Shown here one piece after another: positions 6,569-26,578 of a stretch of DNA of 64,000 nt (position 1 is the first letter of the stretch; each line of letters opens with the position of its first letter). The notes under the pieces were generated by a model, which was not told the origin of the DNA, made no database searches, and saw only the letters and a program-made list of their open reading frames with translations. The DNA comes from Sphagnum magellanicum (lineage: Eukaryota; Streptophyta; Sphagnopsida; Sphagnales; Sphagnaceae), in NCBI GenBank assembly GCA_021904315.1, contig CM038907.1, positions 28,155,223 to 28,219,222 on the forward strand, in the 5' to 3' direction. A program made the translations under genes and the position numbers.

Positions 6569-7130
6569 ATAGCAGGCCTTGATGAGGATGAAAACTTTGG
6601 ATAAGGTTTGGATTAAATGGGGTTAAATGTTCCATCAATATGCAACTGCCCATATTACATGTTCAAGTTGTGCAACTTTTCCAGAGGAGAATTCTTTTGT
6701 GCATAGCAAGTGTTCACCTCATGTCACAATTTTTTGAAGTATATGCACATAAATCTTCAGAGCAGAGGCAACAGATGTTGGCTTGGTTTGATGCAGCTCT
6801 TTCACAAACATGATGCCTGACTAAATAGTTTCCATTCAGAGTTCAAAGAAACTGGCAGTATCAACTTGTCTACTTTGGTTAGATAACTTAGATTAGTCTA
6901 AGAAGGTACAAAGGTGACATCCTAGTGACCCCATCAGCAGAAACCCAGAGTGTAAATCTGGTTATGAAAAACTCCACCCTTTAGGTAGAGTAGTAATCTA
7001 ATTGCTGCCTTGTAGTTTCCAGATCTTGAGCTAAAAGTTCACTGGGTGATATCCCAGAAATTGAGTTGTTAGGAGTAGCTTTGCTGACCAGGGTGGATGG
7101 CAACCTGTTTCCATAATCACAATTCTATGT
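6569..7130. other. Intergenic DNA between two convergent gene tails
   Basis: This holds probable 3' flanks of the bZIP fossil (plus) and MAP65 copy (minus). I see no additional gene or repeat. Confidence 0.4.
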
Positions 7131-7468
7131 CTACTGTGCTGCAGCTGACAATGAAACTGGTGACAGAGGTGGCTGAGGTGCTATCTTCTGCACCGCCTGG
7201 GATTGTCCATGCCCACCAACAGTATTCCTCCTACCTACAGAGGTAGATACACTGGTTCCTTAACCAGAAGAAAAAGTTGGGAGTACCCTAATGGAGAAGG
7301 TGGGGAATGAGGTTGATGGCCAAAATGCGTTTAGCAGTTCCCAGGAGGAGGCCTACCGATCCTGAGGGGAAGTGGGACCTGACCCACCTGCAGAGGCAAG
7401 CCTAGACATCTCATCGTTGTTGGCATTCACATAGTTGAGAGGGGCTGCAGATCATGTGCAATCCTGCT
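7131..7468 (-). pseudogene. Abandoned C-terminal tail of the minus-strand MAP65 gene
   Basis: Sequence past the stop at 7469 still aligns with the tail of the intact paralogue. The old exon 11 continues to about 7388, where CTGCAG meets GTGGGT, with the conserved APLNYV now in another frame. An old exon 12 (7234-7131) follows a CTCTGTAG acceptor and reads GQSQAVQ..APQPPLSPV, matching GQPAVQPLALRQPLSPV of the plus-strand copy, and ends in TAG. One frameshift plus a TGA (position equivalent to an Arg codon, consistent with CGA to TGA) separate it from the upstream frame. Confidence 0.65.
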
Positions 7469-10400
7469 TCATTTCCTTTGCTGGGAAACATTTAACCCAT
7501 TTGTTCCTGAGGGCTCGGTAGTTCCTGGCTGTGGTATGGCACTGCCAGGCGAAAGACGACGATTGGGTTGAGGTCCATTTCCGCTAACAATGGTGCGAGA
7601 TACACCATTCACCTTCTTGGAGCTGAGAGGGGCCTTTGGTGGACTGGGCTTCAACGCAAAAAGTGTCTGTTTTTCATTCATCATTTGATCTTGGATTTTC
7701 TTATGATCCTGTTGTCAAACCAAATTTTTTCCAAATGTTCAATAAGGCATATTGCTGCCACATATCATCTCATACTGCAGGCAGGTACTGCCTTACCTCA
7801 CAGACGTAAATGGATCTACACTATTCTGGGTACATGACATGCTGAGAAGAGAATTAGCAATGATCTTAGATTTGGAAGTGGTGAGGTGTTTCCCACATAC
7901 TCTGAGTCGACGCTTCTCCTCATCCTTTTCTTGGCGCAAGAAGTTGTATTCATCCAGCATGGCAAGCAGTCTCACCTACATTGAGTATTCAATGTGAGAT
8001 TAGCAGATATCCAGTTTTTTTGAAGGCATTGTTGTCAACACCATCCAGAAAACGAAGTGAAATTTCTGCGGCTCTTAGAAAACATGGCCAGAAACACACA
8101 GGAATGTACCCCATCAAACAGGAAGGGAATGCCATTTTCCTCCTCCCAAGCTCTGGTCCTCAAAGTTAATGACTCCACAAGAGCTGTAGAACACAATGAA
8201 CATTACACCATACAATCAGGAATAACATGATTTGTTAAGATTCAACAAAACAAACTAGGATCTACATACAAACTATAATCACTAGCTTTTCTGAATAGGT
8301 GAGGCTCTCTGCTCAATACTGCTGAAAACCTACAACTTGAAAGCATTGTTGTGATAGACATACTTTGTATGTCAGCCCATACCAGGAAGTTTATTAATTG
8401 CTGCCCGGGCTCGTTCTGCACGTTTCAGATTCAGATGAGCTCCTTTGCTGGAAAACCTATTTTCATCCTGCATCCAATTCAATGTCACAACTTGGAACCA
8501 TATAGACAAAGCTTCATCAGCAAGAAACTGCCCAGTATTCACCATGACAAAATATCTATGAGAATGTAAAATAATGCAGCAGCTAGTTTCAAGATAACAA
8601 TGTCCTTCTGAGCTGGTGCTTCACAAGTTTCTAAACAATGTGACCAGGTATCAAACCTTGTTATAATCCTCAAGCCATCCCTCCTCTTCACATGCGGACA
8701 TCCACTTTTCCATCTTGTCAAGAATCTCCTTCCTCCTGGATGCTTCTTGCTTGACTTGAGTTATCTGCTCTTCCAACTTGCTCAGAAGGTCTGATGGGTC
8801 TTCCTCTCCTGTGGTCAATAAAATTTGATAAGTTCGAATGCCAATTTCAACAGATGCAAATGAGCAGAGGAATTTGGAATATTACCAACTTTTTTTTTTC
8901 CTGATAATCACAGTATCTCATAGTCACCTGAATCAATCAAGGCAATGAGTTTGCCTTCCATGGTATTGGCATCGGGTTCTATGTGTGCAAATCTGCAGAT
9001 TTCCTCCAACTCCATTCGCCTTTTCAACACAATTTCTTTCATTTTGCTGGCCTTCAATGAGTCAAGTCTTGCAACTTCTACTTCCACCTATGTCAACCAA
9101 GTGTGCAACACCAATTGTCAAAGCTAGCACATTCTATCCTGAAGTGGAGCTCCATGGAAGAAAGTAGAGAAACCTGCAAGTGGAAGAGGAAGAGAGAATG
9201 AACACGTACCTGATCAATGATATCTAAGGTAAGGGAACTGGGTGCAGTTACATCCTCTTCAGTTGCTGCAATGTTGCAAGTTATATGTTGAAACAACTCC
9301 TGTTCTTCAGATGGGGTGTCCATCAGGTTCCATAGTTCAATGAGAGATGTCCCAAGGTCTTGCAGCTGTGGACAAGAGCCAGTGTCAGAAAATCATCTAA
9401 CAATAGCCAGAGATGGCCAAACAATGGATCTCAGAGTTTAGGATAGATCTGCACCTTCTGCAGGCGAAGCTTTTTTTCCTCACGCAAGGAATGGATGGTC
9501 TTGGCTAGACGAGCAATTGTGTCATTGCTAATACTCTTGGGATGTCCTCCATCTGAGTCAACCAAGCTAGGATGAACACCAGCAATAATCTGGACATAAT
9601 CCATTCCCAAAATCGCACACAATTGATGTGCCACATTCATGTACTCAAACACTCTGTGCAAGCGGTCGCCCTGCCAAAACCCAAGCTCAGATTTCAACAA
9701 CAGTAAAACAAATGAAACTGTTGCACTTGCTGCCATTGATTGTTTCCTTAAACATATCTATAAGATTGCATAGAAGATCTTCACAACAACACTTTGAAAG
9801 GTAACACATCAATGATTGTGGTCATAACCTTATGAGAGTCACTCACAAAGTGTCAGACCATCACCTTCATCATGAATGAATTGTTGCCATGACTACCCAC
9901 TGACTTCATCAACTCCCAATGGTAGGTGTGTACATAAGTACATAATAATCAGCCCAAAACTTGGGGCAAAAACCATCATACAAACATCCGCATCCTGAAT
10001 TTCTGTCACATTTCTGGAAGCAAGGGGAAGACTCAGTTGCGATGTTGGCTGGCATCCAAGAGACATAGCTAATGAAAAACGGTCATTTAAGCTGCAACAA
10101 GGTTTAAACATACAGAAAAATGTGGCTCACCCTTTCCTTTTGGAGTGCTTGAAGCTGAACATTATAGTCCTCAAGTCTTTTTAAAGACAGATCCTGATCA
10201 CCCTGATAAAAATCTGCAGCTGGAGGTGTTGCAATTTCTCGACAGATGCTTGCAATCTGTGTCTTTGCCTCCAAAAACTGCTTAGCCCGATCCTCCTTCC
10301 TTTGTCTCAACGCTTCCAATTGGGGCCTAATAGTAGCCAACTGCTCTCTCAAAGCTCCTGTGCGCTTCTTCTGCTGCGATTTCAATTTGCCTCACACTGA

Positions 10401-11029
10401 GTTTCCAATTGAAGCAAGAAAGAGGTCTATGGTCTACCCAACATGGAGAATGAAATCAACAACACTGCAAGTTGTAGCAGAACCTAGATGGGCAAAAGAA
10501 GCTCTGTGTTTTTTTAATCCAAAGCTGTGTGGTTTGTTTATTCTGTGAGTTTTTCCTGGTATGGACATTATTGCATAGGTGTGAAGCTGTGGGTGCAGCA
10601 GGCAAGTCCGTGAGACTAACTCGTGAAACTGCAGGATCTCCAAGGGCGGAGAAAAGTGCTGCCAATTCAGCTTCGGAATTAGCAAGATCTTGATGCAGCT
10701 GTGCACGGGCATGGCTGGCACGCTCCACCTTTCGCCTGTAGACCTCCAGACACTCCTGCTCCAGCTGCAACAGCATCTTGTCTCTCTCTGAATCAGTCTC
10801 CCCCACCTCGTCCCATATTTGCTGCATTTGCAAAACCCACAAAACACCATGTGCTTTGCATAAGCCCATGTGCTTTGCATAGCTCCAGAGCGTTCCAAGT
10901 CGATCCTTGGTCAGAGAAGAAAGTACCCAAATGGGCACAAAGAAGTTCTGATACACGAATAGAGAGACAAACCTGCAACTCACGAAGTAGGGACCCGCAT
11001 GTGTTTTCCACATGCTGCTGCTGTCCCAT
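7469..11029 (-). CDS. MAP65: MAP65/ASE1/PRC1-family microtubule-associated protein, tail-truncated paralogue
   Basis: Exons on the minus strand are 11029-10973, 10821-10621, 10373-10131, 9670-9455, 9365-9210, 9087-8928, 8808-8657, 8467-8383, 8183-8110, 7975-7901 and 7708-7469. All have GT-AG borders and consistent phase, giving about 552 aa. MAP65 proteins are antiparallel homodimers that cross-link microtubules in cortical arrays and the phragmoplast. The family marks are present: CGSLLRELQ, QIWDEVGE, the FEYMN..HQLCAILGMD segment, NLMDTP.EE, WMSACEEEGWLEDYN and AMLDEYNFLRQEKDEEKRR. Exons 4-10 have exactly the same lengths as in the plus-strand paralogue; in exon 4, 50 of 72 residues are identical. 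The protein stops soon after NRRLSP, so it lacks about 140 residues of basic, phosphorylatable tail. It could be a working short isoform (AtMAP65-1 is 587 aa) or an early pseudogene. An intact core and splice sites favour recent function. Confidence 0.85.
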
Positions 11030-11420
11030 AGACTTGGTGTCCCAACTCTCGTCCACCTGCATTCTCACAACCTTAGACAAAACTCCCAATGTCAACAATG
11101 GCAACGAGGTGAAGTGAAGAAGAAGAGAAGTGCACAAGTGAGATGCTCTAACAAGAACAAGCTCTAACAAGCGCAGTTACCCCTCCTCCTAAAAAAAAAC
11201 AGCCAAAGCTCCTCGAATCTCTCTACACGAAAAAACCGCGCTTCTCCTTGTCTGATGAGACTTGTCTTCTGAGGCACAAGACGCTGCCCCCTCTGCCAAA
11301 GCGCAGATGGAGAAAAAAACCCCCAAATCTGAAGAGGGAACACAAGGAAGGAAACGCGAGAAGAGAGAGAGAGAGAGAGAGAGACGATGTGAGAGGACAA
11401 AACGATAGGCCACTTTTACA
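11030..11420 (-). promoter_or_regulatory. 5' leader and promoter-proximal region of the minus-strand MAP65
   Basis: The leader appears to contain an intron. There is an acceptor GAATGCAG before 11056 and a likely donor GG|GTAACT at about 11181, leaving a 27-nt leader exon next to the ATG. The plus-strand paralogue has the same arrangement. A GA microsatellite at 11362-11382 is a common feature of plant 5' leaders. The transcription start itself is not visible. Confidence 0.45.
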
Positions 11421-12156
11421 TGTCTCAGTTTCCTCCACTACAGGTCTGCCACATCATCAACCTCTGGCCAGTGACCTCTGGGTTTTAGATGTCGTCCGAC
11501 AGGCGACTTTTTTTTCTGTCATCTCAGTTTGCACCACGGAAGCCGTACCACGTCAGCTTCATGTCCAGCCTCATGTCCAAAGGTTTCGGTTTCACACCAG
11601 GTTGGTGTTGAAAACTCGTGTTTTTTGGGTTAATTAATTCTAGCGGTGGTCACTCACTGCTCAGTGTGTTTTTTTTAATTTTTTTACTTTGAAAAAAAAA
11701 ATTAGTATTTTTTTACCAAAAAAAAAGTGGGAAAATCACACCTAATGCTAACTCAATGTTAGGAGGTGCAAATTTAGTAAGGTTCACACCAAGAAAGATC
11801 ACTAACATCAAATCCTAGGTGGAATCCTAAGTGGCACACAAATATTTTTAAAAATGTTAAAAAGCATTGTTAAGTTGGTGTTAGCTGTAGCCAAATCTCT
11901 AAATAATATAAATAAATAAATAATTTTAACATAAAAGTCCAATTGTAAATAACAACACCAAAAAGAGCTCATAAGTCCATGGTAAGATACCACCATCTTT
12001 TTTTCAACATGCCCTACGGTTCCCTCTAGTTCCCCTCCTATTCTTCCTCCATGTTCCCTTCCATTATCTACCTTGTCTTTCTTTGCCTTCTACCCTCTCT
12101 TCCTCTTTTCTCTCTCTCTCTCTCTTGCACACCTCTCCTTGCTCAAACCCTAAAAT
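11421..12156. other. Intergenic DNA, nothing recognised
   Basis: This is moderately GC-rich near 11450-11600 (promoter flank), then poly-A/T-rich, then pyrimidine-rich near 12000-12130 with a TC microsatellite. I recognise no gene or TE motif. Confidence 0.4.
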
Positions 12157-12470
12157 AATTCTACTATTCAAAATTATTGTGGAGGGAATACTACTTTCAA
12201 CTACCCAAAGACAAAAAAATGCTCAAATTCTAAAAGAATTCTACTATTCAAGATTCTTGTGAAAGGAATACTACTTTCAACTACCCAAAGACAAAAATTG
12301 CTCAAATTCTCAAAAGAATTCTACTATTCAAGATTCTTCTTGTGGAGGGAATGCTACTACTTTCAACTACCCAAAGACAAAAAATGCTCAAATTCTCAAA
12401 GAATTCTACTATTCAAGATTATTGGGGAGGGAATACTACTACTTTCAACTACCCAAGACAAAATGAAGAC
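12157..12470. repeat. Minisatellite, four copies of an 80-85-bp unit
   Basis: Units beginning 'aattctactattcaa' start at 12157, 12237, 12317 and 12402. Each contains 'ggaatactactttcaac' and 'tacccaaagaca'. The last unit is truncated. Confidence 0.85.
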
Positions 12471-12702
12471 AAAGGAAAGAGGAATACTTGATTGGCGATG
12501 GTGGGTGCAGCTCTCGATGATAACACACATAATGAAATAGTGAAACATGCGTAACAAAGAAAACACCATTTTCAACAATGGGTACAAAAAGAAACATACA
12601 AAATGACGAGATTTTTGGTACCATTGTGATGATGGTGTTAGTCCATCATCACAATGTTAAACTTGTGTTTACTTAACACTAACCTAAACAATGTGAATCA
12701 AA

Positions 12703-12906
12703 ATTAAAATGTTAGTTAAAATTAGGATTAATATTGACTAATGACTAACATTATGATTTTAAAATTAATTTATTGTTAGCTTAATGTTAGTGTTAGGTGC
12801 TACCATTAAAATGTTAGTTAACATTAGGATTAATATTGACTAATGACTAACATTATACTTTTAAAATTAATTTATTGTTAGCTTAATGTTAGTGTTAGGC
12901 GTTAAC
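12703..12906. repeat. Two-copy 102-bp tandem repeat
   Basis: Near-identical units start at 12703 and 12805, each with 'attaaaatgttagtta' and 'aatgttagtgttagg'. They are AT-rich and non-coding. Confidence 0.85.
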
Positions 12907-14479
12907 ATTAAGTGTGATTGTAGCTTTAAGTAGGGAGGTTGTCATTTAATTTATGGGTATAATTATGTCTCTCTACATGTTCAATTCTTCTTTGCTTTTT
13001 TAAAAAAATTATTAGGGAAATTTTCACTTCATCTATTCCATAATGATGTTGGAAATCAAAGATTGAACCTATCACACACACACACACACAATTTTTTTAA
13101 AAAGTGAATAAATATAAGGGTGAAGTAACCCTTTTGTGTGCGTGTGTATAATGCATCCTTGCTCAGTGGGTGCATTTGGACTTTCGTTTTGGGTCAACTT
13201 TGATTTTAGTGGGCAATAAAATTTTACAATATGTATATAGGGAAAAATAAATAAAAATAAGCATGATTTAAAATCAAGAAAAATGTTGGATATGAAATTT
13301 GAATTTTTTTTGGCACAAGTAATTGCTTTATATAACAAGGAAATTAATAACAATAATAATAAATCCAATGCAAAATTTTAAACGAATTTTTGTGCTGATC
13401 ATTGAATAAGTAAAGTAATACGTGATTGGATTTGATAATGGTGTGCCAAATAATTTACCCATTTATTTAGTAAAGTACATATTGGTTTAAAATATAATTT
13501 TTGCAATTTTTTGCTTGCATTATAATTTTTTTTGATATTTCAGCATGAATGAAGATATCAATCATTTTTCATTCAATTTGATACCTAACATTAATCCATT
13601 TAATGTTTATTGATTTACATTTGCATTTGTTTTGAAGGTTTTTTTAATCATTGACCTATCATCCTTTGAAGCGAATTGACATAAATAACATGCATTTTAT
13701 GAATGTCAATAAACTCTAATTTTTCTATTTCAAGATTATCTTTTAGTTCATAAATAATGATTTTTAATTGTAATTGCTTATAAGAAGTTTCAATGCAATC
13801 TACAAACAAGACAACACAAGGATGACAAAATTGTAAATGACATTTCAAACAATGATTGACATGAATGTCCTTTTTTTGATGCATTGCATAATTGGTGGCA
13901 TCATAGTGGAAATGTGATGAAACACATGAATAGCTTTGCAAATGAAATTGATGAAGTTACAAGTAGTCCAATTTTTCAAACAAAAATAATAATGGTTCAA
14001 AGGACAATGGTAATAAAATGCTAATAGACAAATCTCTTATTCCAAATGAAGTTAGAAAACAAAACACAAATTACAAGATCGATTGTATGAACACTTTTTT
14101 GCCATGGTTAAAAAAATAAATTCATTGTTACAATAGTTTACATAAACCAATGTTTTAGTTGATAATATGGATGCTTAAAATGGATGTTTTATAGATAAAT
14201 CATAGGTTATATGACATTTTAATTTTGAATCAATCATCTAAATTTGACATAGAATCACATGTATTTAAGAAATAACATTGTCATTTTTTTTCAAATTGGT
14301 TTTAAAGAATTTTTTTTTGCTAAAAACCTCATTAGTTATCACAACTTTTAACAACATTTTTTCTTTCTTGTTAAGATTGGTTTTAATGGATCTCAAGAAA
14401 TCTTCACCTTGTCCTCCATGTTAAATTCTATTATTATCTACAATCCTTGAATTTTGTAGCCTTTTAGTTTTTTTGAGTG
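12907..14479. other. AT-rich intergenic DNA
   Basis: I see no gene. There is a CA microsatellite at about 13074-13089. Part of this may be non-coding flank of the Harbinger-like fossil, but I could not define terminal inverted repeats. Confidence 0.35.
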
Positions 14480-15470
14480 CATCTTTTTATTCACATCTAA
14501 AGCATAGTTCATATTGAAGCCATCAAACTTAACATTCCATATGTTGTGCAAGTATATGCAAATAATTACCAATTCTAGCACAAGGTAGAATGAAAATATC
14601 AACTCTCTCTAATAATTTCGAACCTACTTTTAAAAATTCTTAAAGTTTTTTCCACTAGCATCATTGTTCTAGATTATATGAAAGTCCATTGTGCTTTGTA
14701 TCTTGACAACTCTTTTTTCATCTTTGAAAAGAAAGTATAACCATGGCCACATTGGACATGTGGCACCCCCTAATAATTTGTAAGGTTAAAGGTTTGTCCT
14801 TCATCACATGATTTCCTAAATCTTTTTTTTTTTTCCTGGGAAGAAAACCCTATCATGAATACATTTGCATCCATAGTCATAGTCCCGTAAACTACAAATT
14901 GCACTTACATTTCCTTGAATTGATGTGAAGTAAACCCTTTGTGATAATAAAATGATGTTGGGTCTATCTTAGGTGCAAGTAATTGGAATACAATTACCAT
15001 TTATGGCATTTACAATGTAAGGAATTTCATGCAAAATTTCAAATCCAGAGGTGTTTTCTTTAATATTGTTCTTAATCAATTTAGGTATTGCCAATGGCTT
15101 TAAGTGTGTTTTAACTACTACATAAAATTCTCTCATTATAATGGATGCCATATTTTCTACAATGCCATAGACCTTTCTGCATATTTGTAATGAATTTTCA
15201 CTACCTAATATTGTAAGAATCATTATTACTCTAACTTCTACAAGGATTTTTTTTTTGCTTGTTTGCATTTTCCACTCAAAATTTGAATCTACAACCTTAT
15301 GGAGCATGAACAAAATGCATCATAACTTAACCTTATACATTGTTGAAACATTTTCTTGTAAAAAAAATGGATTCTTCATGTATCCCACTCCCCTTTCATA
15401 TTTCCATATGTTTCAAACTCTTGATGACATTTCAACAACATTTGGAAAAAAAAACTAATACACACACCAT
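14480..15470 (-). mobile_element. PIF/Harbinger (HARBI1-like) transposase fossil
   Basis: On the minus strand a decayed nuclease domain can be followed in order: LGSENSLQIC; then ENMASIIMREFYVVVKTHLKPL; then FEILHEIPYIVNAING followed by CIPI (family: .IPYVIGAIDGTHIPI); then PKIDPTSFYYHKGFTS; then LRDYDYGCKCIHDRVFFPG; then P.WPWLYF; then FHIIQNN and ICIYLHN. This is the DDE nuclease of PIF/Harbinger transposases. The first catalytic Asp is Asn here (AING for AIDG), and at least two frameshifts and several stops interrupt the frame. No target-site duplication or terminal repeat was found, so only the coding remnant is claimed. Confidence 0.72.
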
Positions 15471-16974
15471 ATTTTAATGTATATCAATGTACACATCATA
15501 TTCCATGGTTTTCAAGTCGATCTTCACTTTGAAAATGATGATACCTTAAGTGAAAATCAACCATTAATTCTCACTAGGCTAAAAATTGCTTAGGGTATTT
15601 AAATGTTAAAATATGAAAACATTCATAAATATTAGAACATACCCAATTCCAATTCTCAATAAAAGGGATTTAAGGTCTAGGATCTAACGATTTATGTTAA
15701 CATTTACAGTCTAAGGTGCTTGATAAGGTTCATTAAATTAAGTTTTAGGTCAAAAATACAAAAAAATGAGATTAAGGTTAGGATTAACATTCCGTAACCA
15801 TTGTGTGCATAGAGGTATTGTTACCACACTTCACCAATATAAAAAGCAACAAGCAAATGTTTGGGCCCCATTCTTTTTGGTCTTTTTTGTTTGGGGTTGG
15901 TTTTGTCTTTGTGTTTTTGTTTTTATGTGTTTTAAAATTTTTGTTGCTTGTTGTTTTGAGCTTGGCATTTCGTGTTGATTCTTTGCTTTGCTACTTCATC
16001 TTGTTACCATGTTTTGTTGTTTCACCTTGTTTCATTTTATTCTTGCATCAATTTGTTGATAAGAATTGATTTAATGATTCAAGAGTTGGTTACAAAATAT
16101 TTTTTAATCTAGTAAAAATTATTGAGATGGATGTAAATTTTTTTTAAAGAGTTCAAAATTGTTGGGAAAGAAAAAATTATGAACATGTCAAATTTTTTAA
16201 AAAAAGCTTGATTTTCCCCCATTTTCATATTGGGGACTAAGTAAAACCATATTAAAATATACCTCTAAAGTTAGAAGAGAGAACCATTGTCAATATTGAT
16301 GAATCAAGTAATTGAATCCCATGTGGATCTCCTTACGACCATGGATGATCAAATTCATTACCTTCTATTTTAAAAAAATATTTACTTAAAACAAGACTAG
16401 AAGAACCACCAATTCATTCACCCACACACCAAAAAAATGTGTTTTACACCATTGTTAAAAATGCTTGAAGAAAGGGCTTATAATCTAGATGGTTTCTCCA
16501 CTACCCTAATTTTGTAAGAAGACACTAGGTACTTACTTACATACCTCTCTTTCTCTCTCTAGCACCTCACCATTGGCCATCAATCTTGGGTCACAAAGTT
16601 CATGTAACACTTGGACTTGCTTCAACACACATACAATAGGACTAGAACCACCCACGCAATCACCCCACCAAGTAATGCTTTAAAGAAAATCTAATCCTTG
16701 GAGTACTACACACTTTGTTTGGATTCCCCCACACTATAATACACTTAGAACACACAACATAACACAACAATACACCATGGTGCAAGGGTAAAGCTCGAAG
16801 GTGGGTGGCATTCCAATAAGGAGCCTATGGTCATTGAGTTAGGGCCCACATTTGGGGGAATTGTCCTCTACACACATGTGCTTTTACCCTTCAACAACAA
16901 GCACAAGGCCAACAACATTATCATGAAACTAACCATAGTAAAATCAACAAAGGCACAAGAAGAAGAGGATCAAG
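15471..16974. other. AT-rich intergenic DNA
   Basis: There are no convincing coding or RNA signals. A TC microsatellite sits near 16546-16560. The short open frames at 15766-16069 are T-rich chance frames. Confidence 0.35.
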
Positions 16975-17080
16975 AGGAGGGATCTTACAACTACTCCTAA
17001 GGAGTGCAAGAGATTTTACACCCATTATCCCTTCCATAATACTCCTCTTACTCTTATTGAGTAGGTGTAAGATCCTTCCT
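16975..17080. repeat. Small hairpin element related to the 18.7-kb array
   Basis: The left arm at 16975-16996 (aggagggatcttacaactac) and the right arm at 17059-17080 (gtaggtgtaagatccttcct) are inverted copies with about two mismatches around a 62-bp loop. The core 'gtgtaagatcc' is shared with the array downstream of the DUF538 gene. Confidence 0.6.
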
Positions 17081-17220
17081 TCCTCTTTTTTTTTAGTAGC
17101 ATCAAAAAGTGGATGCACTACTTGTAGAAAGAATTTGGTGTACCTTTTTTTTTTTTTTTTTTTGGGGGTGGTTTGGGGATGAAGGATTTTTGCATTGGAA
17201 TGGGTGTTTTTGTGTGCAGG

Positions 17221-17820
17221 ATGTTGAAGATGATGAGAGAAAGGTTTTTGGGAGTTTTTGTTGTTTTGGTCTTACCCTGTGTAGCGATGGTGGTTCTCGT
17301 CTCTGCTCATGAAGAAGTTGTGATGATCAGCCACCAGCAGCAGCAAGACTCATCATCATCATCATCGTCGTCTTCATCATTGACAACAACTGATGCATAC
17401 GAGAAGATCGAATCCTACGGATTTCCTCAAGGGATTTTGCCACACACAATCAAGAGTTACATCCTGGAACCCAGTGGCAGGTTCACTCTTTATCTGGAAG
17501 GCGAATGCAAAGTGCTGATTCAAAGCAAGTACCCTCTGGAGTATGATAAGACCATCACTGGATTCTTGTCTTACGGACAACTGCAACAGCTTCAGGGTAT
17601 CAGAGTCAAGGCTTTCTATGTCTGGTGGAGCATCAGTACCATCTCGCGCAGTAGCGACCACGACCTTTTATTCTCTTTCGGAATTCTCAGCGCCAAATTC
17701 CCTCTGGAGAATTTTGACGACCCTCCTATTTGTGAGAGAAAGCTGTCTGAGGGAGGAGGAGGAGGAGGAGGAGATCTGTCTGCATGGAGCTTCTTCTTCA
17801 ATCAAGGGTTTTATTCCTGA
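17221..17820 (+). CDS. DUF538 family secreted protein
   Basis: This is a single-exon frame of 199 aa. The first 29 residues form a hydrophobic signal peptide (GVFVVLVLPC then VAMVVLVSA). A run of ten Ser (residues 44-53) leads into the DUF538 domain, about residues 58-171: YGFPQGILP, GRFTLYLEGEC, YDKTITGFLSYGQLQQLQGI, then FYVWW and FSFGILSAKFP...PPIC. The domain's usual order and two conserved Cys are present. DUF538 proteins are plant-specific and small, with no settled biochemical role, although chlorophyll or lipid binding has been proposed. Start chosen: the ATG at 17221 just after 'gtgcagg', because it gives a clean signal peptide; an in-frame ATG at 17173 would add 16 residues. Eight Gly near the C-terminus come from a GGA microsatellite. 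Hairpin repeats flank the gene on both sides. Confidence 0.85.
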   Translation: MLKMMRERFLGVFVVLVLPCVAMVVLVSAHEEVVMISHQQQQDSSSSSSSSSSLTTTDAYEKIESYGFPQGILPHTIKSYILEPSGRFTLYLEGECKVLIQSKYPLEYDKTITGFLSYGQLQQLQGIRVKAFYVWWSISTISRSSDHDLLFSFGILSAKFPLENFDDPPICERKLSEGGGGGGGDLSAWSFFFNQGFYS

Positions 17821-18168
17821 GATTGCATTTTAGGGTATGACTCCAGTATTATTTATTCTTTTGGATCCGTTTCTTTTTTTCCCTACAAAATCTTGTCCCA
17901 CATTTTGCAGCTGAATCTCTCGACTATTGTTTCTTGGGTTTCCTGTCTCCCGATTTTGTTGTCTTCTTCTTCTGCTGCTCGGCCAAATTGCGGTCTTACT
18001 AGGGTTTTGCAACCAAAAGTATGCAAACAGAAAGCAAAGTTTGTATTTGTAGCAAACCAAATGGAGAAAATTCAGCACTGAAGCAAATATAAGAATACAA
18101 ATTCTTTGTTTCCCAGACTGAAGTTGCAATTTTCAGGTTTGGGTTACTGAGATGTAGTAAGATTGAAT

Positions 18169-18226
<58 letters not shown>

Positions 18227-18410
18227 TTCTTAACTAACAGATTATGCATATTGATGTGGTTACTGGCAACACAATTTTTTTCTGCAAAAGTCTGGCAGCA
18301 CACAGTTGGAGTTTTTTTGGCAGTTTGGAGCTTTAGTTGCAATGTTTTGCTGTTCAAGGACACATTTTTGATGGCTTGATGTTTTTTTTTATGTGGATTG
18401 ATATTGTGAT
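17821..18410 (+). other. 3' flank of the DUF538 gene with GA microsatellite
   Basis: This is a probable 3' UTR and downstream DNA. A GA microsatellite of about 57 bp occupies 18168-18224. The open frames across it (RE/SL repeats) are produced by the microsatellite. Confidence 0.5.
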
Positions 18411-18414
18411 CAAT

Positions 18415-18550
18415 TGATGTCTCATGGAAGAAGTACTCGATCCTTAGTGGATTTTCATTTGGAGATTAAGGAGAAAGATGAGACCAAGTACTTGATGTCT
18501 CATGGAAGTTTTCATTTGCAGATAAGGAGAAAAAGATGAGGCCAAGTACT
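18415..18550. repeat. Imperfect two-copy tandem duplication
   Basis: Units starting 'tgatgtctcatggaag' at 18415 and 18493 both end in 'ccaagtact'. The second copy lacks about 20 bp. Confidence 0.75.
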
Positions 18551-18659
18551 TGGTTCACCTTTTCTGATTTTTTTGTATAGGCATTACCCTTGCAGCAGGC
18601 ACCTTTGTCTAGTGTGTGGGTATTTCGCAAAATGGTACACTTGTGGTCGAGTGCCTACT

Positions 18660-19009
18660 TATAGGTGTAAGATCCCTCTCACTCTTGACTAGTAGGGTTA
18701 GGCATACCATGAAGAAACACCAGCTATAGGTGTAAGATCCCTCTCACTCTTGACCAGTCGAGTTTTTATAGGTGTAAGATCCCTCTCACTCTTGACCAGT
18801 CGAGTTTTTATAGGTGTAAGATCCCTCTCACTCTTGACCAGTCGAGTTTTTATAGGTGTTAAGATCCCTCTCACTCTTGACCATTCGAGTTTTTATAGGT
18901 GTAAGATCCCTCTCACTCTTGACCAGGAATCTTACACCTATAAAAACCCTACTGGTCAAGAGTGAGAGGGATCTTACACCTATAGTGGGTGTTTCTTCAT
19001 GGTATGCCT
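18660..19009. repeat. Tandem array enclosed in a large inverted repeat
   Basis: The unit 'tataggtgtaagatccctct' plus 'cactcttgacc' begins at 18660, 18725, 18767, 18809, 18851 and 18894, with a 42-43-bp period from the second copy on. It is then followed by inverted copies up to 18984. The outer arms are also inverted: 'ggcataccatgaagaaacac' at 18700-18719 is matched by its complement at 18990-19009. The RNA or single strand could fold into a hairpin of about 310 nt. It looks like a fold-back or MITE-type element that expanded internally. Confidence 0.8.
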
Positions 19010-19208
19010 CATCTTTTATCTCATAACGGAACTTTAGTTTGAGGTTGCTTGTTTTTGGACTATTGTTCAATGAAGACTTGGAGGAAAGGATTTGGATTGA
19101 AATCCGACATTATTCTTCTGTTTGGCAAAAAAATTCCCTATTATGTGGATATAAATGAATGAACTTCAAATATTAGAACTAATCCTTCATATTATGGACT
19201 CTCTAAGT

Positions 19209-19470
19209 TCATGAAATAATTGCAAGATTTAACATCTTTCTTAATTTTTCAAATTAGAAATGATTCAAAGGTTTAGTGAACATGTCCACTAAAATTACTC
19301 TAAAAAAAGGAACATGGCCAACTTGTATCTTACCTTCTTGAACTTTTTCTTTATAACCATTAAAGACTATTAAAGTGATTATAAAGGTGGTTTTTAAATT
19401 CATAATTGCAATTCTCAAAAAATAAAACAAAATCCAATTCTAATATATAACCATGGTTTTCAATTTCGTT
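19209..19470 (-). mobile_element. Ty1/copia retrotransposon fossil, RNase H C-terminus
   Basis: The minus strand reads VQEGKIQVGHVP, a short degraded stretch, VDMFTKPLN, a stop, then FEKLRKML. This is the standard end of copia polyproteins (EGKI...IPT.dq.ADI.TKPL....FEKLR.ML). Stops interrupt it. No LTR or target duplication could be defined. Confidence 0.55.
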
Positions 19471-20234
19471 TAAAAAAACCAATCATAACGTTGTTAGGTT
19501 TTGATTTTTCTTTTTTCCTAAAAATCATAAGTTCTTTAAGTTTTTTTGAAATAGATAATATCAATAGTTATTTAATTTTGAAATATTCAAAAACTAAAAC
19601 TAAGGACTCTTTAATTTTTTTTGATTAAAAGAAAGGTGGAATTGACATTTTTAAAAATTTCAAATAATTGCAAAAGATAAGGCTTATAAAAGCATAAGGC
19701 CATTGCACTTCATCAAAGTTCATCAAAGATTCAATGAAAATTATAGTTTTGCATAAAAATGAGAGTACTACACTATAAATTACACTTACACAACCCAAAA
19801 AAAAATTAATCAAAAACATATCCACACATGCCATGCAAGTGTAAGTTTAAAGCCCAAAATATGCCCAAAGGAAAATGTAAGTGTTAAAAACTTGGGCATA
19901 TAAGGCTTTTTAGACAATACATTACACGATCACTCACACTTATGCATACAACATTGGATAGAACTTATTCCATTCGGTTATTATAATCTATTTTTGACAA
20001 AAGCACATGCCTCACAATGGAAAACAACTTAGTGAACCTAACTATTACATACCAAATGGAAGAGGAAAATGTAACTTATAGTGTTATTAGATGTTCAATG
20101 TTCTTTTAGGGTATGACATTGTCTCTTGGTGCTTTTGAAATCAAAGAAGGAATTCAATTATTATTACAATTATATGCAAAGGTGTGTGGGAAAAACTTTT
20201 GGTCATGTCATGTTTTGAGCAAAACCAAATCACC
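19471..20234. other. AT-rich intergenic DNA
   Basis: Some of this may be upstream copia sequence too decayed to read. Nothing else was recognised. Confidence 0.35.
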
Positions 20235-20398
20235 GTAGTACCTTGGCACCTTTGCTACTAATTATATTATTTTCAAAAATGTTTAAAAAATTTAAATGAA
20301 GGAAAATGTTGAATCTTTAGGAATATGTTATTTGTTGAAATGAAAACTTCCAAATTAATTAATTATTCAACATACATGTGTTGAAGTTGCCAAGTACT
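20235..20398. mobile_element. Short MITE with 'agtaccttggcacctt' ends
   Basis: The left end is 'gtagtaccttggcaccttt'. The right end, read on the other strand, is 'agtacttggcaacttcaac'. The two form imperfect terminal inverted repeats around about 125 bp of AT-rich DNA. Similar ends occur at 3775 and 63131. The superfamily is not assigned. Confidence 0.4.
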
Positions 20399-20600
20399 TA
20401 TGCGTTTCTATGATACATTTAACTTGTTTTGCAACCCTTTAATTGTTATAAATGATTACAAAACAATGCCTGAAGCACAATAGGAATAAATTTCAAGGAA
20501 ATATAGTGAGAATTACGGGGAATGTAGATGTAAGAAATGTTCTATTAAATTATTTGCTTCCTTTTAAAAAATGAATGCATTTAAGAAAAAATTAAATTGA

Positions 20601-20996
20601 TTGCCCAATTTTAAAGAGGTGTTGAACATGGGAAAATATTTATTATTGTGGGAATCGTTATATTGTGCAATTTTATCAAACTTTTTCACAAATTTTATTT
20701 ATATGTTGTATTATTTCTTGAAACAATGCTACATTAATGTAAATCTTAGATACCATGGTGTGATATTTAAGAAAATATCTAACCTAGTTTTGGAAACAAT
20801 TACACCATACATCATCAAACCATTTATGACTCCACAAAGCTATGAAGTGTTTAACACCTTTTCTATCGAAACTTGGTCATTTGTGTATTCAATAAACCAT
20901 TATTTCTGGGATTATAACACCCCATCCTTTGGTGGTATTGAAATTTACTATATGGACTTCACAAGATTTTCACAAATTTTGCCATATTCATACTAA
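20601..20996 (+). other. Unassigned 131-aa open frame in AT-rich DNA
   Basis: This is the longest open frame in the 19-22 kb AT-rich block. It is rich in Ile, Phe, Tyr and Asn, as expected of AT-rich sequence. A faint resemblance to the helix before the nuclease core of Harbinger transposases (KISNLVLETITPYIIKP) is not enough to assign it. It is most likely non-coding. Confidence 0.15.
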
Positions 20997-21889
20997 AGTG
21001 ATATTTTAATCTGGGGAAAAAGTCCATCATGAAACCTAATTATAATTGCAAATTGCTCAAATCCCAAAAGGGTTTCAAAATAAAATTTTCCTATCATGCA
21101 CAATTTTTAAAAAATTCCCCAACTATTTTTTTAAAAATTTTTTATACATATTTAATATTTGATAGAAGAAATCTAGCATTGATTGATAACCCTATTTGGT
21201 TTGCCTTCCTTTGTAAATGTACCAACAAATGAAAGTCCCTTCTCTATTTGTTGGTACCTCCAAAAACTCAAGAAGTCCATAGTTATATATAAGAAAAATA
21301 GTTTTGGCTTGATTTTGGAAATATAAAGGGAAATATTTCTTTAAAAATTCTAGTGACAAGAAGAAGAGGAATTGGTATTTATATGAGTGATTTTTTGAAA
21401 TTTATCATATAATCGTCAATAAGTAGATTTCAAAGACAATTCATATCTACTTCATTTTCAAGCTAAACTATCTCACTTTTCTAGAAAATAATTATGTTTT
21501 TTATTTTATTAATTGTTATAATAAAAACTTCTTATCCTAATAACTATCTCACTCTTTTTTCCTACCCATCGACATTTAAAAATAAATAAAATTAACATGT
21601 GCTTTTACATGTTCATAAAATTTATATTAATTCAAATTTCATTTAATTTGAAATTGACATAAATAAATGATGAACATTTGAAAACCATAGGAAAATATAA
21701 GAAGAGAGAAAAAAAAAATTGGTTATGAGTGATTGTCCAAAGCAGCACAGAGCCCAAGTTAAAAAATATAATATATGTTATGCCAAAAATGAAGTTTAGC
21801 TTGAATGTTTTTGGCACATACCTACCGGAAAATGAAAAAATAGGGGAAAACAAACCTCGCCAGTGAAAAGCCAGTCAGAAAAACAGATT
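20997..21889. other. AT-rich intergenic DNA
   Basis: Nothing is recognised before the GC shift that marks the MAP65 promoter region. Confidence 0.4.
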
Positions 21890-22906
21890 TGTTTTGAATC
21901 GGTCGCAACTACAGAAAACCGAAGAAACGGTCGGTAAGATACGGCGGTCAGAGTCCAGACCCGGCCACCGCCCCCCCCCCCTTCTCCTCTTCCTTTTCCT
22001 TCGCTCTCTTGTATACCCGCTGTATCACCGGGCTAGTGTTTCCTTTTTGGCGTTTCCGTTTTCGCCGGCAACGGTCACTGCGCCACCCCCTGCGCAATTC
22101 AAATCGTGGCCGGGTGGCCCCACTTTCGACACACGTGGCGAATAATTATTCGTCGTTTGGGTATAAACTGTGTTGTCCCGCCCGGCACAACTCCCGGCTC
22201 AACTGAGCGCCGGAGCGTTGCTCTCCATGACATAGCAAGCAATTCTCAGGCTTCCACTCTTTGTCTGGCGCAATCTCTTCCCTGTCTGCCTCTCCTCGAT
22301 CCATCGCTCGCTTGCTCGCCTCTTTTCCGTCTATGCCTTTGGTTTCTTTATTATCGGAGCAGGAGTTCCTACGGAGTCGAAGTTCTAACAAGGAAAATTG
22401 GAAAACGATCAAGACATCATTATATTGTTTTCTCTTTCGTGTTTTCTGCATTTTGCATTCCAAGCAGGTGTGACAAGGTAAAGTTTGCACGCTCTTGTTA
22501 CTACTTTCCTCGTTCGCTTTTCATCTTTCTGTTTCTTTTCGGGACTGTCAGTGTGTGTCCGTCGTCATCATCATCCTAGGTATGCCCCAAAAGAAAACAG
22601 GAAAGAAAATTGTGTTTTTCTTCGTTGTTAACATTGTCGTCGTCGTCCTCGCCGTCGTCGGATCATTTTGACCTATCCATCTAAGGATGTTTGTCTTTGA
22701 AGCTCTCTCGTTTATTCACGTTTTTGGCCCTCATTATGCGGAGGAGGATGATGAGCGTGAAAAGAAGCAGAGCGTATGATTGCTGCTGGCTGGTTGTAGG
22801 AATTAATTCTCTAGTGATTTGCGGTCGCCTTCGCTATTGTTTTGTTACGTTACTTTCAGGTTGCTGAGGTCGTGAAATTTGCAGGTGAATGAAATAGATC
22901 ACAATA
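21890..22906 (+). promoter_or_regulatory. Promoter and intron-containing 5' leader of MAP65 (plus strand)
   Basis: GC and CpG content rise abruptly here. A C11 run lies near 21970. A likely leader intron runs from the donor TCCTAG|GTATGC (22580) to the acceptor AATTTGCAG (ending 22884), leaving a 22-nt leader exon before the ATG. The minus-strand paralogue has the same layout. Open frames across this region (up to 157 aa) have no family features and are not accepted as genes. Confidence 0.45.
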
Positions 22907-25900
22907 ATGATGCAGCAGCCCGGGCAGCAGATTATGGTGGATACGACATGCGGCTCTTTACTCCGGGAGTTGCAGGTTTTTTTTTTTTTTTTTTTTCCCT
23001 GAAATAAGTGTCTTTGTAGCACCTGCTGTTTCTTTCATACAATGGTATACCGCAATGTTCAATAACGCTCGTGACTATTCTTCTGTTTTTTTCTCTAGAA
23101 AATAGTCACATGCTTCTACGATCTAAGGCCATGCGGACATTACAGTGTGTCCTTGTTACGAATGCAGCACATATGGGACGAGGTGGGCGAGAGCGATTCA
23201 GATAGAGATAAAATGTTGTTGCAGTTGGAGCAGGAATGTCTTGAGGTCTACAGACGCAAGGTGGACCACGCTAGCCATGCTCGTGCACAGCTGCATCAAG
23301 AACTTGCTAATGCAGAGGCTGAGTTTGCAGCACTTTTCTCTGCTCTTGGTGAAACTCCAATTTCTCTAAGAGTGAGTTCTTGCATCCATTCTTGCTTCTT
23401 GCTAACTTTTTCACCAGCCATGTCCATGAAAACTGCAGAATGAGCTAGATATCTTCTCCTGTTTTCAGTTGATATTTCTTATTGTGAGTCTGTCTGAGGG
23501 ATTCTGGATCAATGTTGAGATTGCAGGATAAGCGCACAGGGACTCTGAAAGAACAATTGGCTACTCTAAGACCTCAGTTGGAAGCATTGCGACACAAGAA
23601 AGAGGATCGGATGAAGCAGTTTTTGGAGGTGAAAAGGCAGATAGCAAACATTTCTGGGGAAATTGCAGCAACACAAGCTACAGACTTCTACCCAAGTGGA
23701 GGAGAGCAGGATCTGACATTAAGGAGGCTGGAAGAGTATAATGCTCAGCTTCAAAAGCTTCAAAGGGAGAGGGTAGGTAAACCTTCATTTTGGGAAATAA
23801 ACATTCAATGCAACTTGCAAGTGAGCAGATTGCTCTGACTCTTGTGGTGAATAATCATTTGTCATGTTGGGATGGATTCCTTGCAGAATGAACGCTTGCA
23901 CAGAGTCTTGGAATATGTGAATGTGGTGCATGAACTCTGTGCAGTTCTTGGAATGGATCTCCTCCAGATTCTTGCTGATGTTCATCCCAGTTTAGTGGAC
24001 TCTACACCAGGGCACACCAAAAGCATCAGCAATGTCACACTTGACCGTCTAGCACAGACCATCCGTTCTCTGCGAGAGGAAAAAGGGATTCGCCTCACTA
24101 AGGTAAAGTGTTTCTTGTCTTTACCAAACTGAACTTGGAGACAAATCAGTACCGGGTTACTGGCACAATTCCTCTTGATATGTGATGACTGACTAGCTCA
24201 CTTGCACTCACAGCTGCAAGACTTTGGTGCTTCTCTGTTAGAGTTCTGGAATTTGATGGATACTCCAGTTGAAGAACAGCAATTGTTTCAGCATGTCACT
24301 TGCCATATTGCATCAACTGAAGATGAGGTTTCTACGCCCGGTATCCTTTCAATGGAGACCATTGCACAGGTACTAATGCCTGATTCCTGCTTTGATTTGA
24401 ATGTTTAGGGCTTGTTCTGATCAGCAGCATCTTGTGAACTAAAAAGAATGCTGTTAACTCATGCCGTATGTGCTTGATGAATTTCAGGTTGAATTAGAGG
24501 TGGAGAGACTTGATACTCTTAAAGCCAGTAGAATGAAAGAGCTTGTGGTGAAAAGGAGAATGGAACTGGAGGAGATCTGCAGATGTGCACACATTGAGCC
24601 AGATGCCAGTACAATGGAAGAGAAGCTCATTGCCATGATGGATTCAGGTCAGTAGGAGGCTTGCATCAGCATGTATGGTTGCAATGATAATTTCCTTGAT
24701 TGAGTGTTAATAATTTACTTTGCTGCAGGCATGGTAGATCCTGCAGAACTTCTGGGCCGTATGGAGGAGCAGGTAGTGCAAGCCAAACAGGAAGCATCCA
24801 CAAGGAAGGAAATACTTGAGAAGATGGAGAAGTGGATGTCAGCGTGTGAAGAGGAGGGATGGCTTGAAGACTATAACAAGGTTTGGCTGTCTCAAGGGAA
24901 AATGTAGACTATTTGCTTCATGACTCTGGTATCTTGTAATTGAGGAAAAATTGTGTATGGGAAGCAGAGGAATCCCTAGCAGGATGTTGGGAGCTCATTG
25001 GTGCTCAACCAGCCTTTCACATTGTATGCAGGATGAAAACAGGTTTGCCAGCAAAGGTGCTCATATAAATTTAAAACGTGCAGAACGAGCCCGGGCAGCC
25101 ATTAATAAACTTCCTGGTATGCTTAATTGAAAGGGGGGAATGCTCCTTGGATTCTTGGATTTTATAGTATTAACTTTGTGGGTGTTTTATCTGAGATGTG
25201 GGTACTTCAACTTACTATTTCAATGATGACTTTGTTACAGGTCAACTGAATAAAGAATATTGCACAAATATTGCACTGACTTGGGTTGCGTGGTATGGTT
25301 GTGATTGAACACAGCTATGGTGGAGACATTAATACTGAAGACAAAGACTTGGGAGGAGGAAAGGGGTGTTCCATTCATGTTTGATGGGGTGCATCTCTTC
25401 TCTGTGACTTGCTTATCTTTCTACTTCTTATTTCTGAGGCAGGTTGTTGCTTGAACAGACTAGCATTTGATTGCTCTTTCATGCCTTGTGGGATTGCCTG
25501 TTTCTTACAATTGGGACTTGTATGCAGGTGAGGTTGCTCTCTATGCTAGATGAATACAACTTCCTCCGGCAAGAGAAAGATGAGGAGAAGCGCAGATTGA
25601 GGGTGAGAACTAGAAACCAAACATTTCAGTATTTGAGCTAGAGTCCACTCTAGTGTTCAGACTTCTTTCCAGCCATTTTCTTTGAAATAGTTAGTGTGAT
25701 CATGCTGAGCAATGTGACTAAGCCCTGTGTGATCATGCTGCATGTTTTTATCTTGCTACAGGACCAGAAGAAGATCCAGGAGCAACTAATAACTGAGCAG
25801 GAGACACTGTTTGGGTCAAAGCCCAGTCCTATCAAGGCCAATCTTAGCTCCAAAAAGGGCAATGGTGGATCTCGCCCAAGTGTTGGGGGAGCAGGATCAC

Positions 25901-26578
25901 AACCTAATCGGCGTCTCTCCTTGGGCAATGCCCTAATGCAGCCAGCAACTCCTGAGCTGTCACGAACAAATGGAGTAACAACAACACCTTCACGATTGGG
26001 TGCATCAGTGGGCAAGGACACCAAGCGGGAACGTGCACGACCTGTGGCTCCTCTCAACTATGTGGCCCTCAACAAGGATGATAATGCTGGACTTAATTCT
26101 GCAGGTGATATTGCTTCCATTTTCTTTGGACAGTCTGATTGTGCAAAACTCAAAATGTTCATGCCATTGAAGTGTTGAGGGCCCTGAGTGCAATTGCTGA
26201 GAACAAATACCTTATTCCTGGGCTATTGTTATTGACTTGTCTGTGGAATGACTGGTGTTTTCCAATGTTTTAGGTGGGAAAACTACAGCTGCTGTGCGTG
26301 GGCAACCAGCAGTGCAGCCATTAGCTCTTCGACAACCTCTGTCCCCTGTTGTATTGGCAACGACACCACTACAAGCATATATGGATGATTCAGTAAATCG
26401 ATTGCCATCAGCACAATTGGCACAGCAGGCAAGTAAGGCTGCTGCCTATTCTACAAAAAACTCCATGTCTGGTACTTCACTTACTGACCCTGACATGCAT
26501 GATTTGGAGAATTCAACCCCAAGACAAGTAGTAGAATACTCCTTCGAGGAGCGTAGAGTTATTAGTCTTCTTGGTTAG
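22907..26578 (+). CDS. MAP65: MAP65/ASE1/PRC1-family microtubule-associated protein, complete
   Basis: There are twelve coding exons: 22907-22975, 23168-23371, 23527-23772, 23887-24102, 24214-24369, 24488-24647, 24729-24880, 25032-25116, 25315-25388, 25528-25602, 25762-26104 and 26274-26578. The sum is 2085 nt, 694 aa. The start is the first of two adjacent ATGs. Conserved marks are CGSLLRELQ (15-23), HIWDEVGESD, EYVNVVHELCAVLGMD, NLMDTPVEEQQLFQHVTC, KASRMKE, WMSACEEEGWLEDYN (about 386-400) and MLDEYNFLRQEKDEEKRR. The protein is expected to dimerise and bundle antiparallel microtubules in interphase arrays and at the phragmoplast midzone. The basic tail after residue 480 carries SPIK (501-504, a CDK consensus) and RRLS (529-532). 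MAP65 activity is normally switched off by mitotic phosphorylation in this tail. The tail is longer than in AtMAP65-1 (587 aa). Confidence 0.95.

Follow-up and report, generated by a model that had tools for sequence, protein, structure and literature searches.

A probable short-tail MAP65 gene with a clipped end, facing a long-tail MAP65 gene, in Sphagnum magellanicum

The stretch of Sphagnum magellanicum DNA analyzed here (the window: 64,000 nucleotides of contig CM038907.1, C1:28155223-28219222) carries two genes of the MAP65 family, denoted M (the minus-strand copy) and P (the plus-strand copy). On balance, we favor the view that M is a short-tail MAP65 gene, the core of which is under weakened constraint, and it is probably translated and may have kept a function since a 7-nt deletion clipped its end. 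M belongs to the known MAP65 family and is not a new system.

The M and P genes

The genes are laid out as follows, all the positions being 64-kb window coordinates:

7469..11029, minus strand: M, a MAP65 gene with 11 coding exons, 551 amino acids (gene model, PF03999 match, and match to the PRC1 structure 4l3i)
11029-10973, 10821-10621, 10370-10131, 9670-9455, 9365-9210, 9087-8928, minus strand: coding exons 1-6 of M
8808-8657, 8467-8383, 8183-8110, 7975-7901, 7708-7469, minus strand: coding exons 7-11 of M
22907..26578, plus strand: P, a full-length MAP65 gene with 12 coding exons, 694 amino acids, and a long tail with the end EYSFEERRVISLLG

M and P lie on opposite strands with their 5' ends facing each other and their start codons separated by 11,878 bases, and both match the family profile, in agreement with the original prediction, which described two MAP65 genes in opposite orientation about 12 kb apart. 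The exons of P were reproduced by a spliced alignment of P's own protein to the window. The splice positions, said to be common to the two genes, do agree, in both position and phase, at the ten introns between coding exons 1-11. Exons 4-10, likewise claimed to be identical in length, measure 216/156/160/152/85/74/75 nt in M and P alike, and the lengths of exons 1, 2, and 3 differ by 12, 3, and 6 nt, respectively. The shared leader-intron layout is plausible in both genes, with acceptors before 11056 (M) and 22885 (P), but falls short of proof. P and M show 73% identity. The core of M is fully open, as had been noted: it contains no stops and no frameshifts, and GT-AG borders are present at 10/10 of the introns between exons 1 and 11.

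The PF03999 profile (MAP65_ASE1; cut-off 26.9) matches M with 295.9 bits over profile positions 2-475 of 477, and P with 289.5 bits when its first 550 residues are scanned. In phmmer searches, M matches the PRC1 structures 4l3i (M residues 14-490) and 3nrx (368-482), and the best stretch of human PRC1 scores 62.3 bits with M versus 48.1 bits with the first 550 residues of P. By these matches, M has the rod and the spectrin-like microtubule-binding domain, as in PRC1. The fact that M fits Pfam and human PRC1 at least as well as P does counts in favor of a short-tail MAP65 gene.

A dispersed repeat about 300 bases in length is located in intron 3 of M (9754-10087), and two more copies, 70-73% alike, occur in the window (40575-40840 and 44425-44725). 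Tandem arrays are present near or between M and P at 12140-12463 (80 bp x 4), 12703-12911 (102 bp x 2), and 18725-18926 (42 bp x 4.8, with inverted copies to about 19009).

Long-tail and short-tail MAP65 genes and the end of M

When the genome (438,994,042 bases in 31 contigs, the contig numbers being treated as chromosome numbers) was searched with PF03999, 20 matches were obtained at seven places, which correspond to P, M, and five other loci (L009 to L013), listed here with two more decayed copies:

C5: L009
C2: L010
C1, 6.46 Mb, minus strand: L011
C1, 7.60 Mb, plus strand: L012
C12: L013, a decayed copy
C16: L032, a decayed copy of the long-tail type
C13: L033, a decayed copy of the short-tail type

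The core frames of L009, L010, L011, and L012 are open and their introns have GT-AG borders, whereas L013 is broken; the start codon of L010 sits five codons upstream of the aligned start. A codon tree with no outside root was built from 542 core codons of six genes, L013 being excluded as a pseudogene; since more distant MAP65 matches (on C6, C11, C18, C3, C7, C17, C5:5.33 Mb, and C1:21.9 Mb) lie outside it, this tree does not amount to the full family. It consists of two clades (100% bootstrap support): clade I (P, L010, and L012) and clade II (M, L009, and L011). The finer groupings are weaker (M-L009, 59%; L010-L012, 79%).

The two clades differ in the way in which their genes end. In the long-tail genes P, L010, and L012, exon 11 is spliced to exon 12, and F[EN]ERR occurs near the end of the protein. 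L009 and L011 no longer have a GT at the intron-11 donor (it is GC in L009 and GG in L011), and the frame continues for 11 codons past the old exon border, so that the predicted proteins, 594 and 601 amino acids in length, end in GGSAPTSPRDV and GGSAPTSPRDR, respectively. In the 33 nt that precede the clade II stop, M, L009, and L011 are identical to one another at 27/33, 29/33, and 30/33 positions, and behind this stop the similarity falls to 51/107, 44/109, and 76/101 aligned positions; the decayed copy L033 has a GGSTPTSPWD stretch at the place of the end peptide. Exon 12 and its acceptor are still recognizable in clade II, but stops interrupt its frame in M and L009 and, following 61 codons, in L011. 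From its sequence, exon 12 appears to be out of use in the whole of M's clade, and the long tail is likely to be the older state, since clade II contains a decayed exon 12. The original prediction took M and P to be duplicates, one of which had had its tail cut off. This picture had to be abandoned: the split between them is old, they are not each other's closest relatives, and the exon-12 tail is missing clade-wide. A loss of the tail in M alone was ruled out once the other MAP65 genes in the genome were examined.

M differs from the intact members of its clade at the end of exon 11 and beyond, where the following features occur:

7469..7483, minus strand: site of the 7-nt deletion (gap between 7483 and 7482) and the stop, four codons on
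7389..7468, minus strand: remainder of exon 11 behind the stop of M, which after a second TGA still reads SAAPLNYVNANNDEMSRLASA in another frame
7353..7388, minus strand: first part of the former intron 11, which seems to be coding in the intact members of the clade; in M it reads GGSGPTSPQDR and a stop, behind the premature stop
6981..7234, minus strand: exon 12 relic (the old long tail), interrupted in the clade I frame by stops at 7133, 7127, and 6983, with an acceptor that is still AG

M had been thought to stop directly after NRRLSP (residues 521-526). It actually continues for 25 residues beyond this motif and ends at residue 551, its stop codon being the TGA at 7471-7469. Compared with L011, exon 11 of M shows a single gap, of 7 nt, and the alignment is otherwise interrupted only by a gap of 1 nt behind the clade's stop; with the 7-nt deletion, about four new residues (QQRK) and a stop replace 45 residues of L011, or 42 of L009. 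The old tail was correctly described as legible beyond the stop in a shifted frame: the residual tail of M aligns with that of P with a score of 143.5, versus 44 for the best of 500 shuffles.

It is improbable that the 7-nt gap arose as an error in assembly or sequencing, or represents a rare allele carried by the plant that was sequenced, with a typical M protein that is longer. The good preservation of the segment behind the gap, where the clade's end peptide is kept, speaks for such an error, but a second in-frame TGA is present in M between the gap and the clade's end (L009 has CGA there and L011 has CAA), and the gap alone therefore cannot account for the broken end of M. Nor would correcting a lone sequencing error, as once proposed, remove the whole of the truncation, since the clade has lost exon 12 irrespective of the gap. 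It is hardly credible that alternative splicing past the stop, for example from a donor at 7605 to exon 12, still yields part of the old tail: although the GT at 7605 is phase-matched and scores 5.8 bits (real donors, 5.1-10.2), and would bring in exon 12 in the old frame for 34 codons, the use of this donor would drop most of the tail encoded by exon 11, and the in-frame stops of exon 12 mentioned above also tell against it.

The number of S/T-P sites beyond RRLRD is six in each of P, L010, and L012, three in each of L009 and L011, and two in M. M has kept the RRxS (Aurora-type) serine, now in RRLSP, and KPSP; the other S/T-P sites of P are missing, and one (RRLSP) has been gained. The earlier point about the tail's mitotic phosphorylation sites thus holds only in part. 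The RRxS serine is Ser-532 in P and Ser-525 in M. Ser-532 of Arabidopsis MAP65-1 presumably lies within an RRLS motif. An Aurora site has been reported at that residue, and the Aurora sites of MAP65-3 are in its C-terminal region, where Ser-528 matches Ser-532 of MAP65-1 (PMC11074315).

Constraint on M and the fate of its mRNA

Under a branch model, the dN/dS ratio (omega) of M was 0.349 (about 0.24-0.52), versus 0.186 for the background. The value for M differs from 1, with twice the log-likelihood difference (2dlnL) amounting to 25.1, and to 22.9 and 28.5 with the other two arrangements of clade II. Purifying selection on the M branch is relaxed but real, as measured over the whole branch, with the times before and after the deletion taken together. 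The dN/dS comparison suggested along with the original prediction gave 0.35 for the M branch, a value that makes it neither strongly constrained nor neutral.

Several results weigh against a working short-tail gene. The omega of M is significantly above the background (2dlnL 8.7; 8.3 and 7.5 with the other two arrangements), and in a free-branch model, in which one short internal branch reached 0.51, M had the highest value of the six tips (0.355), the next being the intact L012 (0.292). The deletion may also be recent, and much of the core constraint older than the truncation; if the deletion is young, the constraint mostly predates it. In the 40 codons behind the deletion, M and L011 show 7, 4, and 12 differences at codon positions 1, 2, and 3, a third-position bias that would fit a recent deletion; in the same terminal segment, M and L009 show 13, 7, and 9, and L009 and L011 show 9, 8, and 4. 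Since neither of the latter pairs has a third-position bias, the clade II end evolves loosely anyway. Early tests of the age of the truncation, based on lesions in exon 12 of M compared with the tail of P, were superseded by a corrected test because exon 12 seems to have been already unused in clade II.

The mRNA of M is a further point on the same side. Unlike L009 and L011, M retains a GT donor for intron 11, at 7387, which scores 9.5 bits (5.1-10.2 for the other introns), with an acceptor before 7234. If intron 11 is spliced, the stop of M is located 81 nt upstream of the junction. Decay in Physcomitrella is reported to be predicted by splice junctions in the 3' untranslated region (UTR) but not by long 3' UTRs (PMC6009662), and an mRNA spliced in this way would be a candidate for nonsense-mediated decay. 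With intron 11 retained, as the lost donors of its relatives suggest, the mRNA should escape decay.

The main rival reading, a real although not a likely one, is that M has just begun to die: function would have been lost with the 7-nt deletion or the nearby TGA, lesions would have had no time to accumulate in the core, and the raised omega would come from a final, neutral stretch of the branch. The relaxed omega, the two disabling changes in the terminal segment, the possible decay of the spliced mRNA (PMC6009662), and the occurrence of broken MAP65 copies at 3/9 of the loci examined closely (L013, L032, and L033) all fit this possibility. The state of the core, however, does not. In the 551-codon span, M has no lesions and L013 has four, in exons 4, 5, 9, and 11 (CGA has become the stop TGA at two places, the exon-5 donor is broken, and exon 9 is frameshifted), although L013, a pseudogene copy of L011, has diverged from it by only 2.2% (95/4399, with 17/1806 exonic substitutions); since it is so close to an intact gene, the segment carrying L013 must have been copied recently. 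On the assumption that all of M has evolved neutrally from its first terminal lesion onward, the probability that the core would stay clean while the 41-codon end took a second lesion is at most about 0.02 at the rates tried, in a test in which the pattern was picked after being seen and the end segment was taken from L011. L032 and L033 were called dead from their lesions, and therefore show what decay looks like rather than providing an independent test. The two alternatives originally envisaged, a short working form or a gene beginning to die, are thus both still live, and the short-tail gene with a weakened core constraint is the one we favor.

History of the locus and place of M in the MAP65 family

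The synonymous divergence (dS, NG86) is 0.905 for P-M, 0.393 for M-L009, 0.468 for M-L011, 0.601 for P-L010, and 0.441 for P-L012, giving a within-clade range of 0.39-0.60; by YN00, the P-M value is 0.79. Two genome duplications have been reported in Sphagnum, their Ks peaks lying at 0.406 and 0.643; chromosomes 1, 2, 5, and 8 are said to derive from one ancestral chromosome (PMC9946827). The P-M dS is higher than both peaks, which were derived by a different method. A recent local or tandem duplication giving rise to M and P was ruled out, given the two fully supported clades and these P-M values.

Between the two genes lies a further coding stretch:

17378..17767, plus strand: DUF538 coding stretch

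A DUF538 homologue (L018:8283-8651), 79% identical to it, is located 20 kb from L009 on C5, with order and orientation kept, an arrangement that points to a paralogous block. In about 30 kb retrieved to either side of L009, no further MAP65 match turned up, and none around L010 and L011 either. A simple reading is that an old head-to-head pair on the ancestral chromosome has remained whole at M and P, and that one member is left on C5 (M-like) and one on C2 (P-like), although for C2 this draws on the tree and on how the chromosomes are grouped rather than on shared neighbors. L011 and L012 are both on C1, 1.1 Mb apart, and their places are explained neither by whole-genome duplication alone nor by the old pair. 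They form a second short-tail/long-tail couple on one contig, with a relative orientation like that of M and P.

Elsewhere in the window, a LUC7-like exon (48358-48825, 43 bits) and an Arm-repeat stretch (39266-39757, 21.3 bits) mark neighboring genes. A 505-aa stop-to-stop frame at 29647-31164 has a very high content of Lys and Glu; Pfam gave no match for a 480-aa part of it (with the first few letters mistyped). Rfam at gathering thresholds gave no match over the 64-kb window, and among viral contigs, 0/153 of the stretches fitting a search pattern were relatives.

M resembles the plant MAP65 family (PF03999; animal PRC1, yeast Ase1) in its rod, its spectrin-like domain, the basic start of its C-terminal region, and its RRxS serine; it departs from it in lacking the exon-12 tail and the end of exon 11, and in having two S/T-P sites beyond RRLRD where P has six. 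It shares with L009 and L011 the exon plan, the decayed exon 12, the N-terminus, and the core features, and their end peptide is legible behind its stop; it differs from them in its length of 551 amino acids and its GT donor, as L009 and L011 have no intron-11 donor and end in GGSAPTSPRD[RV]. L013 is a clade II MAP65 like M, but M has no L013-type lesions before its terminal segment.

The order of events set out here, the disuse of exon 12 in clade II, the translation and biochemistry of M, and its having worked since the deletion are what we infer from these comparisons. An old inverted duplication would have given a long-tail gene (clade I, P) and its sister (clade II, M). The last exon would have gone out of use in clade II as exon 11 was extended into the former intron, yielding a short conserved end peptide, and exon 12 would then have decayed. 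Later genome and segmental duplications would have multiplied both clades and, in M alone, the 7-nt deletion would have put about four new residues and a stop in place of the last 42-45 residues. What is left would comprise the dimerization rod and the spectrin-like microtubule-binding domain, together with a short basic stub and the Aurora-type serine. Such a protein would dimerize and bundle microtubules, probably with a lower affinity and with fewer proline-directed switches, and would still be open to Aurora at S525, where an L-to-P change adds a proline-directed context. In plant MAP65s, C-terminal phosphorylation generally reduces microtubule binding (PMC6421500, PMC7290007), and PRC1 without its tail is reported to bind more weakly and yet to form droplets and tactoids and to organize microtubules (PMC13205108).

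A bolder proposal, which we regard as doubtful, is that peat mosses have a second MAP65 class in which the mitotic control tail has been swapped for a short peptide from a former intron, and that M goes one step further as a nearly tail-less, constitutively active bundler, free of most proline-directed kinase control and with its Aurora site kept. Among the matches listed, no open-licence paper dealt with tail-less or truncated MAP65 in mosses (a moso bamboo survey, PMC11548304, was outside this scope), and the only one containing both MAP65 and Sphagnum was, by its title, a Eucalyptus transcriptome study.

In plant cytokinesis, the question of which part of the MAP65 tail mitotic control depends on is still open. 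With long-tail genes (three intact), short-tail genes (two), and a clipped one, all having a similar core, this single moss genome contains a natural deletion series, and it provides a case in which a paralogue appears to have lost its last exon by reading on into an intron.

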